From the NCBI RefSeq assembly GCF_009646335.1, contig NZ_WJBU01000002.1:248001-312000 (forward strand): a stretch of DNA of 64,000 bases. Direction: 5' to 3'. The notes beneath the pieces were generated by a model. That model worked only from the letters and a program-made list of their open reading frames with translations. It ran no database searches and was not told the DNA's origin. The DNA is from Caenimonas koreensis DSM 17982 (GTDB lineage: Bacteria; Pseudomonadota; Gammaproteobacteria; Burkholderiales; Burkholderiaceae_C). Position 1 is the first letter of the stretch, and the number at the start of each line of letters is the position of its first letter. A program made the position numbers and the translations under genes. Positions 56,511 through 63,057 of the stretch are shown here, in pieces.

Positions 56511-58562
56511 CTATCGAACGCGCATGCCCGGCATTGCACCCGGCGAGGGCTCGAGCACGTAGATGCCCGGGTTCGCCTTCTCGTCGCCGTGGCTCGCCGC
56601 CAGCACCATGCCTTCGCTCACGCCGAACTTCATCTTGCGCGGCGCCAGGTTGGCCACGAGCACGGTGAGCTTGCCGACGAGTTGCTCCGGCTTGTAAGCC
56701 GATGCGATGCCGGAGAACACGTTGCGCATGCGGCCTTCGCCAGCGTCGAGCGTCAGTTGCAGCAGCTTGGTCGAACCCTCGACGGCCTTGCACTCGACGA
56801 TCTTCGCGATGCGCAGGTCGATCTTCACGAAGTCGTCGATGGTGATGGTGGGGGCGATTTCTTCGCCCACTGGCAGTTCACTCCCTCCCCCGTTGGGGGA
56901 GGGTTGGGGTGGGGGCTCTTCCCCCGCTACCTCAAACAGCGCATCCAGCTGCTTCACGTCAACGCGCTGCATCAAGTGCTCGTACTTGCCCACGCTATGC
57001 CCCGCACCCAGCGGCGCAGCAGCGTTGCTCCAATCCAGCGGCGCGCAGGCGAGAAACTTCTCCGCTTGCGCAGCGAGCGTCGGCAGCACGGGCTTCAAGC
57101 ACGCCGTCATCACCTTGAAGCTCTCGATGCACGCAGAGCAAATAGCAGCCGCCTCATCAGCCTTGCCTTCCTTCACCAGCTTCCACGGTGCAGCAGCATC
57201 GAAGCGCAGATTGACCTTGTCGGCATACGCCATGATTTCGCGCAGTGCGCGCGCGTAGTCGCGACCTTCATACAGCGCCTGCGTGTTGCGCACCAGGGCC
57301 TGCGCTTCTTCATCAACGGGCGACGCGACCAGCTGGCCTTGCGGAATGAACTTCACCGCCCGGCTGGCAATGTTCACGTACTTGCCAATCAAGTCGCTGT
57401 TCACGCGCGCCATGAAGTCATCGGGGTTGAAGTCGATGTCTTCGTTGCGGCCGTTCAGCTTGGCGGCCAGGTAGTAGCGCAGCCACTCGGGGTTCATGCC
57501 CAGCGACAGGTACTTCAGCGGGTCAAGCCCCGTGCCGCGGCTCTTGCTCATCTTCTCGCCGTTGTTCACCGTGAGAAAGCCGTGCACGAACACCTTGTTG
57601 GGCACCTTGCGGCCGCTGAAGTGCAGCATCGCGGGCCAGAACAGCGTGTGGAACGTGATGATGTCCTTGCCGATGAAGTGGTACTGCTCCACGGTCGGGT
57701 CGGCGATGAACTTGTCGTAGTCCACACCGATCTTCCCAAGGTAGTTCTTCAGCGAAGCGAGATAGCCCACCGGCGCATCGAGCCACACGTAGAAGTACTT
57801 GCCCGGTGCATCAGGAATCTCAATGCCGAAGTACGGCGCATCGCGGCTGATGTCCCAGTCGCCCATGGCCGTCTTGCCGTCGGCATCAGGCTCGAGCCAC
57901 TCGCTGATCTTGTTCAGCACTTCGGGTTGAACCGCGCCGCTGGTCGTCCACTCTTTGAGGAACGCCATGCAACGCGCATCGGACAGCTTGAAGAAGAAGT
58001 GCTCCGATGTCTTGAGCACCGGCGTCGCGCCTGAGAGGGCGGAGTAGGGGTTGATCAGGTCCGTCGGGCTGTAGACCTTGCTGCACACCTCGCAGTTGTC
58101 GCCGTACTGGTCCTTCGCGTGGCAGTTGGGGCACTCGCCCTTGATGAAGCGGTCGGGCAGGAACATGTTCTTCTGTGGGTCGAAGAACTGTTCGATGGTC
58201 TTGCTCGAGATGAGGTTGTTGGCCTTCAGGTCGCGATAGATCTGCTGCGCGAGCTCATGGTTTTCAGGCGCGTCGGTGCTGTGCCAGTTGTCGAAGGCGA
58301 TGTGAAAGCCTTCGAGGTACGGCTTGCGGCCCGCTGCGATTTCAGCGACGAACTGCTGCGGCGTCTTGCCCGCCTTTTCGGCGGCAATCATGATCGGCGC
58401 GCCATGCGCGTCGTCGGCGCACACAAAGTGCACCTGGCTGCCCTGCATTCGCTGGTGCCGCACCCAGATGTCGGCCTGGATGTATTCCATGATGTGGCCG
58501 ATGTGGAACTTGCCGTTGGCGTACGGCAAGGCGGTGGTAACGAAGAGCTGGCGCTGTGTCAT
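56511..58562 (-). CDS. metG: MetG, methionine--tRNA ligase
   Basis: 683 residues from ATG at 58562. The HIGH motif is FHIGHIMEY near residue 20, zinc cysteines CPNC and CEVC near 145-160, and KMSKS near 340. A C-terminal tRNA-binding (EMAP-like) domain starts near 575. Between the two parts is a Pro/Gly/Ser linker ([13 protein letters not shown]) coded by a G-rich dispersed repeat that also occurs intergenically at 42975-43024. A TAGAAT -10-like element lies at 58589-58594. Confidence 0.96.
56879..56931. repeat. dispersed C/G-rich repeat inside metG
   Basis: The block CTCCCTCCCCC, GGGGGAGGGTTGGGGTGGGGG and CCCCCGCTA lies in frame within metG and resembles 42975-43024 in sequence and orientation. 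It codes the flexible linker before the C-terminal tRNA-binding domain, so it is tolerated there. Confidence 0.8.
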
Positions 58563-58703
58563 GTGGGTTGTCAGATGGGGAGCCGGGAATTCTATGCTTC
58601 GGTCTCGCGAATGCGCTTTGCATGTGCATATAAGAAAAAGATACACAGAACTGACTTATTTGATTCCTAGAATCCGCAGCTCTTTTGCAGTACGGATTCA
58701 CCC

Positions 58704-59183
58704 ATGGAACCCCCACTTCCCCCGCTCGAGGATGCCTATCGCAGTCTCATGGAAGACTTGGCGCAGCTCGTCGGCTTGCGCAGCCGGCCCGGCAGCCTTC
58801 ACCACACGGGCAACTTCAAATTCAACGGCGTGGCACTGACGATTGCGCTCGATTCGCGCGAGGGCCAACTTGTTCAAGTGTTCATCGACTTCGGCGCCTG
58901 CCCCACGGAAAAGGCCCTGCCTGTCTACAAGCGATTGCTCGAAGTCAACCTGCTGCTCGGCGCCCAGGGCAGCCCGCGCCTCGCGCTTGACCCCGTGACG
59001 GACCGCGTCGTCTTCACCTATTCGAGCGCCCTGCATGGGCTCACCGCGCAGGCGCTGCTCGCTGGCATCGAGCAGGCGGCCGGGCAGGCGAGCGAATGGC
59101 GCGAGAGTTTCTTTATTGACGAGACGCCACCTGCTCGCGCGCAAGGTGGCATGTTTGGGATGCGCCATGCACTGCACGTCTGA
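58704..59183 (+). CDS. CesT-like type III secretion chaperone
   Basis: 159 residues, mildly acidic. The pattern fits CesT/Tir chaperones: LTIALDSREG, then VQVFIDFGACPTEKALPVYKRL, LLEVNLLLG near residue 78, a hydrophobic LALDPVTDRVVFTYSS near 94 and a C-terminal EWRESFF. Such chaperones bind a secreted effector in the cytoplasm. The gene overlaps the next by 17 bases (59167-59183). A TAGAAT -10-like element lies at 58668-58673; Shine-Dalgarno is weak. No secretion apparatus genes are in the window. Confidence 0.75.
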   Translation: MEPPLPPLEDAYRSLMEDLAQLVGLRSRPGSLHHTGNFKFNGVALTIALDSREGQLVQVFIDFGACPTEKALPVYKRLLEVNLLLGAQGSPRLALDPVTDRVVFTYSSALHGLTAQALLAGIEQAAGQASEWRESFFIDETPPARAQGGMFGMRHALHV

Positions 59184-60426
59184 GCGTTTGCGCTCGCTGC
59201 GCACAGTGGGGGCGCACTGCCTGCGAGAAGTCATCGCCCAGCCACCTGCAAAACTGGCGGGGCTGGCAACCTTGTGCGCTACTGCAGGGGCGTGGTCGTC
59301 CGGCGACGAAACGATTGCAACCGGTCTTTTGATCGGCGCGACGGCAGGCGCGGGCGTGCTGGTGGTGGGCCGCATCGCCTGCCACCAGTTCGGCACGACG
59401 ACAGCGCGTAGCAAAGCAGCCGTGGCGCTGTCAGCAGCTGCGGGCGGTGGGCTCGCCGCCGCTTGCGCAATTGGCAACGAAGCGGCCGTGATGGCGACAG
59501 AGTCCATGGTGGCAGTGAGCGCGATTGCCTTGTGCGCAGCGCGTGTTGTTGCCGTCCGAAGCCGCGAGGAAGTGCCGCCGTGGATCAATGCGGGCTGTGT
59601 ATTGGCAGCTGTGGCCGCAGGCGTTATGGCCTTTTGTGCATTCACCATCGCGGTGCCACGCGGATCCCGCGCGATCCACATGGGAGGCGGGCCCGACGGA
59701 TTTCTTCTGGCGCGCCAGGCCGGCTCGCTCGTCGAGGCGCTCGCGGTCGAGATCGGCAAAGAGCTCCTGAGTGGCTGCGGCCCATCGGTTGATCGCCGCG
59801 GCTTGACCTTTGACGACCGGATCAAGGCGGCCGCGCAAGGGTTGCTGCCGTACATCGCCGCCTGCGTTCTCATCAACGGCATGGCCGCCCCGGCGCTGTT
59901 GGCCAATGGCGATGGAGTCAGCCAGGATGTCGTTTTCGAAGACCTCGTCGCCGCTGTGCTCGTCACCTGCCTGACCAACGTGCTGCGCAACGGCGTCAAT
60001 GCCACGGTGGTGATCCATACGTGGGACGGCGGCAAGCGCGACGGCCTGCCAGACAACCCGATTGACTATCAAGCCGAACCCAAGACGATGCTGGGCCGCG
60101 CTGCCACCATCGTCGATCGCTGGGCGGTGCGTTCGCTGTTGATGGCGGCGCGAACCGCCACCTATGTGTTCATGCGAACGCAAGGTTTTTCCATCGAAGC
60201 GTCGGCCATGGTGGCGCAGGGCAAATACGCAGTGTTCGCGCAGTTCCGCGAGGTGCTGGCTGACTTGATGGTTGGTGACGGTTGGTCGCCGCAAGTGCTG
60301 GTACATCTGCGCGAGACTGATCCGCCCTCGCGGATCGATCTTGAAGAGATAGAGGCGCAATTCGATGCGCAAGCGGTCGAGCTGGAATTTGAGCGGGTGC
60401 TGCAGCAGGCGGGTGCTACCGCGTAG
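59167..60426 (+). CDS. hypothetical multi-spanning protein, candidate T3SS substrate of the CesT-like chaperone
   Basis: 419 residues from ATG at 59167, inside the chaperone reading frame's last codons. Hydrophobic stretches lie near residues 30-65, 80-125, 140-165, 230-250 and 262-285. The amphipathic C-terminal third has VDRWAVRSLLMAARTATYVF and VHLRETDPPSRIDLEEIEAQ near residues 318-405. I recognise no family. The stop-start overlap with a CesT-like gene is the classic chaperone-substrate layout, so a translocator or effector is plausible. Confidence 0.6.
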   Translation: MHCTSERLRSLRTVGAHCLREVIAQPPAKLAGLATLCATAGAWSSGDETIATGLLIGATAGAGVLVVGRIACHQFGTTTARSKAAVALSAAAGGGLAAACAIGNEAAVMATESMVAVSAIALCAARVVAVRSREEVPPWINAGCVLAAVAAGVMAFCAFTIAVPRGSRAIHMGGGPDGFLLARQAGSLVEALAVEIGKELLSGCGPSVDRRGLTFDDRIKAAAQGLLPYIAACVLINGMAAPALLANGDGVSQDVVFEDLVAAVLVTCLTNVLRNGVNATVVIHTWDGGKRDGLPDNPIDYQAEPKTMLGRAATIVDRWAVRSLLMAARTATYVFMRTQGFSIEASAMVAQGKYAVFAQFREVLADLMVGDGWSPQVLVHLRETDPPSRIDLEEIEAQFDAQAVELEFERVLQQAGATA

Positions 60427-60492: not shown

Positions 60493-61587
<1,095 letters not shown>

Positions 61588-61626: not shown

Positions 61627-63057
61627 ATGGAACCCGGCTTCGAAATCGACCCCAACGGCCTGCTCAAACCGCGCCGCCTCACGCTGGCGCAATGGCTGCG
61701 GGAAGGCTTGCGCGCGGGCCTGCTGCTGAGGCCGCGCGTCGGCGGCAGCGAGCCGAATCCGCTGCAAGTCGGTGCACTTGTATTGATCGTCGCGCTGATC
61801 GACATCGCACTCGGCCGTTTCGAAGTGATGGGCGAAGCTGCCTTCGACTTGCGCGGTGCACTCGCGCCCTGGTGGAGCACCGCTGCCATGCTGCTCATCG
61901 CCTGGTGGGGCCTGCCGCGCCGTGACGAGCATCTGCAGCGCCCCTCGGGCCTGCCCGCGTGGTTTGCGCTGTGGATGGGCGCCGTCATCCTGCCGAGCCT
62001 GGTTGCGCAGGTGCTGACGCTGGCTCAACTGCATGAGGCGCTGCCCGCGTTCCTGTCCGAATTCGAGTGGGAGGGCTGGCTGCTCTATGGCGGACTGTGG
62101 CTGTGGACCGTCGCTGCAGTGGTCCGGCTTCTCCATTCCTTCGCCGTACCACCGCTGCGCCTCGCGGTGGTGAGCGCCTGCATGATCGGCATTTTTGCGT
62201 TGAGTGCATGGCAGTTTCCCGACCGGCCGTGGCAGCCTGTGATGGCGCAGGCCGAGCCGGAAGCCGCCAACCGTATGCAGCTGAGCCAGCCGGTGATCGA
62301 GGCACAGCAGGCAACGCTGGAGCGCACGCTGCAAGGCGTTGCGCCACATCGTGAGGGGATCGTCGATGTGTATGGCATCGTGTTCTCGCCCTATGCAGAA
62401 GGTGAAGTGTTCATGCGTGAAAGCCGGATGGTTGCTGACCTGCTTGCCGAACGCTTCGACGCGCAGGGCCATGTCATCCACCTTGCCAACAACGCCGCGA
62501 CGCCCGAGAGCATTGCGTGGGCCACACCCGACAACCTCGATCGCGCTGTGGATGCGATAGCGGCGAAGATGGACCGTGAGAACGATGTGCTCGTGGTGTA
62601 CCTCACGTCGCATGGCGCGCGTGACTTCAAGCTTGCCGCGGCGAACCCGCCGCTGGAAGTCGAGCCGCTGAGCCCGGGCGACTTGCGCCGTGCGCTCGAC
62701 AAGGCCGGCATCCGCAACCGGGTGATCGCCGTGTCGGCCTGCTATTCGGGCGGCTGGATCGGGCCGCTGTCGAGCGAGTCCACGCTAGTGATGACCGCCG
62801 CAGATGCGGACCACACCTCGTATGGCTGCGGCAGCCGTTCCAAACTCACGTTCTTTGGCCGCGCGGTGTTTGATGAGCAGTTGCGCAAGACGCATTCGTT
62901 CGAGCAGGCCTTTGCGCAGGCGGTGCCGGTGATCAAGCAGCGCGAGATCGAAGGCAACAAGCCCGACGGCTTTTCGAATCCGCAGATCAGCGTGGGCGAC
63001 CGCATCCGGCCCGTGCTGCATGAGCTGGAGCAGCGGCTGGGCACCCGGCCCGGCTAG
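61627..63057 (+). CDS. membrane protein with C13 (legumain-like) cysteine peptidase domain
   Basis: 476 residues. About five membrane segments lie in residues 48-195 and a C13 peptidase-like domain in the C-terminal half. The catalytic dyad is His in LTSHGARD near residue 330 and Cys in SACYSGGW near 378, the clan CD pattern. Such bacterial C13 proteins are rare compared with legumains and caspases and have no agreed function. The domain faces one side of the inner membrane. It follows apbC by 39 bases. Confidence 0.85.
   Translation: MEPGFEIDPNGLLKPRRLTLAQWLREGLRAGLLLRPRVGGSEPNPLQVGALVLIVALIDIALGRFEVMGEAAFDLRGALAPWWSTAAMLLIAWWGLPRRDEHLQRPSGLPAWFALWMGAVILPSLVAQVLTLAQLHEALPAFLSEFEWEGWLLYGGLWLWTVAAVVRLLHSFAVPPLRLAVVSACMIGIFALSAWQFPDRPWQPVMAQAEPEAANRMQLSQPVIEAQQATLERTLQGVAPHREGIVDVYGIVFSPYAEGEVFMRESRMVADLLAERFDAQGHVIHLANNAATPESIAWATPDNLDRAVDAIAAKMDRENDVLVVYLTSHGARDFKLAAANPPLEVEPLSPGDLRRALDKAGIRNRVIAVSACYSGGWIGPLSSESTLVMTAADADHTSYGCGSRSKLTFFGRAVFDEQLRKTHSFEQAFAQAVPVIKQREIEGNKPDGFSNPQISVGDRIRPVLHELEQRLGTRPG

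Follow-up and report, generated by a model that had tools for sequence, protein, structure and literature searches.

A CesT-family chaperone gene overlaps the gene of a candidate type III secretion cargo between metG and apbC in Caenimonas koreensis DSM 17982

In Caenimonas koreensis DSM 17982, two overlapping genes form an islet between metG and apbC within a stretch of 64,000 nucleotides (contig NZ_WJBU01000002.1, positions 248,001 to 312,000; hereafter the window, in which positions without a prefix are counted). The first gene, P0001 (58704–59183, + strand), encodes a CesT-family (class I) type III secretion system (T3SS) chaperone homologue of 159 residues, and the second one, P0002 (59167–60426, + strand), a family-less protein of 419 residues with six hydrophobic segments. 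We predict, with moderate confidence, that the two constitute a chaperone and its likely cargo, whereby the cargo would be a membrane-inserting effector delivered by the T3SS whose genes lie on a different contig of this genome. Together they probably belong to an effector arsenal that is dispersed over the genome. An original prediction, made from the letters of the window, had proposed a T3SS chaperone-substrate pair. The CesT family, the CesT fold and a T3SS in the genome agree with it, whereas the only relative of P0002 that we recovered, from Caenimonas sp. SL110, has no adjacent chaperone gene and a T3SS-type promoter box is absent from the pair.

P0001 matches the Pfam CesT model with 42.7 bits (cut-off 22, E 6.9e-11), which places it in the curated family, and has paralogues elsewhere in the genome with phmmer E-values down to 1.5e-13. 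Its structure model, with a predicted local distance difference test score (pLDDT) of 82.3, displays the alpha-beta-beta-beta-alpha-beta-beta-alpha chaperone fold. The closest fold matches in the PDB are ExsC, CesT, VecA and SchA, and the matches also take in SycH and SicP as well as the ExsC-ExsE and CesT-CsrA structures. Judged by sequence and predicted structure, P0001 is a homologue of the CesT-family secretion chaperones. The CesT-like pattern that had been noted in the 159-residue protein is thus borne out by the family match and the predicted fold, and the lack of a CesT fold, which had been named as grounds for giving the idea up, did not occur.

P0002 has no family over cut-off in Pfam or NCBIfam and no match among PDB sequences, which agrees with its earlier description as a hydrophobic protein of no known family. 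Six 19-residue windows with a mean hydropathy above 1.6 are located at residues 50–68, 84–102, 112–130, 145–163, 226–244 and 255–273. Two protein searches were carried out, in each of which 7998 candidates from a library of 5.8 billion proteins were scored. Among these candidates, P0002 recovered its own entry and one relative, P0004 from Caenimonas sp. SL110 (444 residues, 45% identity, 403-column alignment, E 6.6e-115), in which the hydrophobic segments are similarly placed. Wider homologues beyond SL110 were found neither among the candidates scored nor in two genome-contig scans, and a genome search located P0002 in 2 of 99 genomes, its own included. About 17 N-terminal residues of the SL110 relative, which make up a polar stretch, are missing from P0002 of the window. 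The charges of P0002 roughly fit an N-in topology, with five lysines or arginines at the N-terminus, three in the first loop, two in the third and none in the fifth, and its codon score is 0.109 per codon versus a flank median of 0.245. Three further leads on P0002 were discarded: DUF6962 scored 16.7 bits against a cut-off of 27, with no match in the SL110 relative at E 0.05; a match in genome G086 covered 98 residues at 28% identity and contained three in-frame stops; and a structure model, built on an alignment of two sequences, was unusable for a fold claim (pLDDT 38.2).

The reading frames of P0001 and P0002 share 17 bases on the same strand, and their coordinates bear out the overlap that had been described for the two genes. 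This overlap is valid for the candidate ATG at 59167, whereby starts further upstream inside P0001 are also possible and the gene caller favoured a later TTG. Since the alignment with the SL110 relative opens at residue 13, P0002 should start at or before this residue, which the ATG at 59167 fits. As far as sequence comparison goes, both genes are more than chance open reading frames, because P0001 has paralogues in the genome and P0002 has a conserved relative at the corresponding site of a second species. The overlap would allow coupled translation, in which P0001 binds the emerging start of P0002. Binding of P0001 could then keep the hydrophobic segments of P0002 from being targeted to the bacterium's own inner membrane, as has been published for SseF and SscB, and P0001 might bring P0002 to the export gate. 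Once delivered, P0002 would become embedded in a membrane of the target, a eukaryotic cell and probably a protist, although the nature of this cell is a guess.

The original prediction had stated that no apparatus genes lie within the 64 kb, which is uncontradicted for the window, and had suggested a search of the rest of the genome for SctV, SctN and SctC. All three were found over cut-off, and the T3SS genes are located on contig C38. There, SctV, R, S, T, U, C and Q as well as SctX and SctY exceed their NCBIfam cut-offs, SctN, J, L and the SctI domain model are also over cut-off, and SctD falls short of it (74.5 of 86). The combination that marks the Ysc family, SctX and SctY together with the core SctC, J, N, Q, R, S, T, U and V over the NCBIfam cut-offs, is present on C38, and by its gene content the apparatus is a Ysc-like T3SS. 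NCBIfam families named no needle, gatekeeper or translocator candidates in the cluster. It also contains LcrH/SycD-like proteins, which are matched by the NCBIfam SscB model, a sigma-70-family gene (Pfam regions 2 and 4; of the extracytoplasmic function (ECF) type by size and layout) and a gene for a LuxR-type response regulator. A second FHIPEP gene, on contig C4, is taken as flagellar FlhA. The idea that P0002 itself is a translocator of the YopB/YopD type was rejected, as it lies on another contig than the apparatus and beside a CesT-type gene, with the LcrH/SycD-like proteins being located in the C38 cluster. Co-occurrence of P0002 with a T3SS, which had been proposed as a check, holds for both known carriers, each having SctV and SctC over cut-off; a lack of any T3SS in the carrier genomes, the second ground that had been named for giving the idea up, did not occur either.

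In C. koreensis the Pfam CesT model identified 10 genes over cut-off, and in 14 control genomes it identified none. One of the 10 is located inside the T3SS cluster and nine loci lie outside of it, including the window, for which the term orphan island was well chosen. In seven of the nine outside loci (the window, L013, L014, L015, L016, L018 and L020) the next gene downstream is co-directional and family-less; at L013 the gene caller favoured an antisense frame over the CesT gene, and the CesT frame was used. None of the eight partner candidates, the divergent one at L017 included, has a Pfam family over cut-off, compared to 17 of 18 islet-flanking genes (16 of 17 as tested statistically, with the second neighbour at 61627 left out). 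Of 17 islet genes, 16 have a codon score lower than the flank median. Between C. koreensis and SL110, the three partners that have a counterpart in SL110 share 28, 32 and 45% identity and the chaperones 46–78%, while the four flanking genes that were compared share 83–92%. Partner N-termini (13 sequences, five of them from SL110) are less hydrophobic than those of 94 flanking genes (p 1e-6) and richer in serine, threonine, proline and glutamine (S/T/P/Q; p 7e-4), with no difference in aspartate and glutamate (p 0.33). The N-terminus of P0002 is unremarkable in this set. P0002 showed no relation to the hydrophobic islet partners in L018, L020 and L119 (E 0.16 or worse), nor to the L018/L120 pair in a profile comparison (probability 0.2).

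Some of the partners deserve mention in their own right. Large family-less proteins of 1140 and 1083 residues are encoded at L013:3721-7143 (−) and L014:3048-6299 (−), each as the next co-directional gene after a CesT gene. The SL110 islet partner at L118:7291-8235 (+) has a weak match to PI3/PI4-kinase that stays below cut-off (E 2.5e-4) and gives a eukaryote-like hint, and the partner at L126 a weaker RGS match (E 0.0036). SL110 has tandem CesT genes (L040:5410-6351) to which a single gene of C. koreensis (L019:6408-6869) is similar (66–70% identity), with no family-less partner beside them. A search of open papers on secretion in Ramlibacter, Caenimonas and Comamonadaceae and on orphan chaperone-effector loci yielded nothing on these islets.

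In Caenimonas sp. SL110 (G050, locus L039) the P0002 relative sits between apbC and metG, as it does in the window. In C. koreensis the borders are formed by metG (56511–58562, − strand; Pfam tRNA-synt_1g, 466 bits) and apbC/mrp (60493–61587, + strand; Pfam NUBPL/ParA, 348 bits), and the matches of both flanks support the earlier statement that the pair is wedged between these genes. Across 30 metG loci, drawn from 59 genomes of the genus with C. koreensis and SL110 included, the apbC start is within reach at 24; the gap between the metG and apbC starts is 8–142 bp, representing an empty site, at 21 of the 30 and 937–1406 bp at three. The leader upstream of the islet (58579–58678, + strand), presumably the promoter region of both the islet and the divergent metG, aligns locally with the SL110 leader at a score of 85, which was reached by none of 2000 shuffles, whereas the best score against 28 other members of the genus was 47, even though MetG is more similar in some of them. 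With most of the junctions empty and the leader aligning between both carriers and not with the 28 others, the islet is likely one old insertion, with the chaperone gene later lost or gained. It would have entered the metG/apbC junction before the two lineages parted, and the local chaperone gene may have disappeared from the SL110 lineage or never have been present there; one of the 10 CesT matches elsewhere in the SL110 genome could serve in its place. The side-by-side layout usual for chaperone and substrate genes of type III secretion is seen in the window and is absent in SL110. Next to the islet, a zeta-toxin-like P-loop kinase gene is found on the apbC side of the SL110 relative (L039:6700-7400, −; 25.6 bits, cut-off 22.3), and in the window apbC is adjoined by a gene for a Peptidase C13 domain protein (61627–63057, +).

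A shared promoter box was sought in the 200 bp that precede T3SS genes and islets of the two carriers (24 regions), with 102 flanking-gene regions for comparison. The motif GGAAC-N15-GTTAC occurs in 11 of the 24 regions and in none of the 102, and three more regions have GTCAC. A matrix built from these 14 sites and from genome-wide ones, and hence trained on the sites themselves, scores 18.9–28.8 on the 14 and at most 5.0 on the controls. Genome-wide, GGAAC-N15-GTYACTC was found 20 times in C. koreensis (reversed control 0), 8 times in SL110 (control 2) and 5 times in G003 (control 1); the remaining 18 genomes have 4 occurrences in total (control 5), so that 3 of 21 genomes have a clear excess. 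Sites in C. koreensis outside the window precede T3SS genes and several CesT islets, for example at C38:93028, C38:104237, C7:77140, C35:30513 and C42:136696. The box resembles an ECF promoter and has a likeness to the HrpL box, and it may be read by the sigma factor of the T3SS cluster; its sites likely make up an ECF-type regulon. It is missing from 10 of the 24 regions, including those of the SL110 relative and of the C. koreensis islets L013, L014, L015 and L018. With up to two mismatches, 14 matches occur in the window versus 16.6 expected, none of them at the pair. Hrp-type boxes (HrpL GGAACC-N-CCAC and the plant-inducible promoter (PIP) box) were found in none of the 24 regions.

Among the 99 genomes, SctV and SctC are each over cut-off in the same 10, C. 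koreensis included, and CesT is over cut-off in 15, among them all 10 of the former (1.9e-10, whereby related genomes are not independent). CesT without SctV and SctC was found in G003, which has two SctN-like fragments, one of them at a contig end, in G006, which is 81% complete, and in G015, G030 and G038. CesT loci of the last three are L115, L116 and L124–L128.

Several observations weigh against P0002 being the cargo of P0001. Its six hydrophobic segments would equally suit an ordinary inner-membrane protein, and the S/T/P/Q fraction of its N-terminus is 0.23 (flank median 0.20; SL110 relative 0.60). No CesT gene adjoins the SL110 relative, which lies 143 bp from metG, and the 200 bp before the window pair contain no GGAAC-N15-GTYAC box (best score −6.8). 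Of the other CesT loci, L017 has only a divergent partner and L019 none. Furthermore, G015, G030 and G038, which are 99% complete and have 5, 13 and 11 CesT matches, respectively, show no SctV, SctC, SctN or SctR over cut-off. Because of these three genomes, CesT genes alone are no proof of a T3SS client; CesT without apparatus genes may reflect loss of the apparatus, an unassembled stretch or a use of CesT outside T3SS.

The main rival explanation, which we consider unlikely yet deserving of serious attention, takes P0002 for an ordinary inner-membrane protein and P0001 for a chaperone of another T3SS substrate that lies upstream by chance. The similar placing of the six segments in both relatives, the charges roughly compatible with an N-in topology, the lone gene in SL110 and the absent box would all suit it. 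It is at odds with the 17-base overlap, with the patchy distribution of P0002 in which both carriers are T3SS-positive, with the fast divergence of P0002 in the genus (45% versus 83–87% for metG and apbC) and with the six other CesT loci in which a gene without known family follows the chaperone gene. Alternatively, P0001 could be a CesT-like regulator and not a secretion chaperone, given that a crystal structure of CesT together with CsrA exists, and P0002 would then serve such a circuit as membrane sensor or partner. The ExsC-ExsE and CesT-CsrA structures among the best fold matches and the CesT genes without an evident partner in the genus (L115, L116, L040) point in this direction, but the fold match equally covers the plain effector chaperones SchA, SycH, SicP and VecA and P0002 has no known domain; we consider this explanation improbable. 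That the pair is a decaying remnant, in which the first part of the cargo gene gave way to the chaperone gene and the export signal of P0002 no longer works, would agree with the shortened N-terminus, the low codon score and the missing promoter box, but we consider it improbable as well: neither frame is disrupted, islet genes generally have low codon scores and P0001 has kept its predicted CesT fold.

If P0001 and P0002 are indeed chaperone and cargo, P0002 would extend the T3SS substrates with several membrane segments by a further family of cargo, and the pair would provide a test case for a CesT-type chaperone that keeps a six-segment protein off the inner membrane. Chaperone genes and promoter box together point to unnamed candidate effectors in bacteria that are not known as pathogens. 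It is conceivable, though we would sooner doubt than affirm it, that P0002 founds a six-span injected family and that the nine CesT loci make up a scattered effector arsenal, mostly undescribed and partly ECF-run with a box of its own (GGAAC-N15-GTYACTC), which free-living Caenimonas and Ramlibacter relatives use against protists.

SscB is a tetratricopeptide repeat-type chaperone, not a CesT-type one. According to the relevant sections of Krampen et al. (PMC6110835), SscB binds SseF both at the chaperone-binding domain and at the first membrane segment, and prevents SseF from being mistargeted to the inner membrane. Both SseF, served by SscB, and Tir, served by CesT, are described there as T3SS-secreted proteins that have membrane segments and a dedicated chaperone, to which the predicted CesT fold of P0001 corresponds; unlike these, P0002, for which no direct comparison with SseF or Tir was made, belongs to no Pfam or NCBIfam family and has no counterpart among PDB sequences. 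The closest parallel in arrangement is found in Bordetella, where, as portrayed in parts of PMC7498569, the chaperone-effector pair btcA-bteA is located far from the injectisome cluster and was found by a computational chaperone screen. A table in that paper lists a bsc locus with gene content and order similar to C38, and SctX, SctY and an ECF-type sigma gene within the cluster are common to both. As far as these parts go, bteA is reportedly activated by the ECF factor BtrS, whereas the window pair is without the box seen in this genome; moreover, P0002 differs in being family-less in Pfam and NCBIfam and having six hydrophobic segments, and nine CesT loci lie outside the cluster. Ramlibacter tataouinensis TTB310 likewise is a nonpathogenic betaproteobacterium with a T3SS (PMC3164672), which is assigned to the Hrp2 family in the pertinent passage of PMC3164672 and to Hrc1 in that of PMC3734048, whereas the apparatus of C. 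koreensis, with SctX and SctY over cut-off, is Ysc-like.
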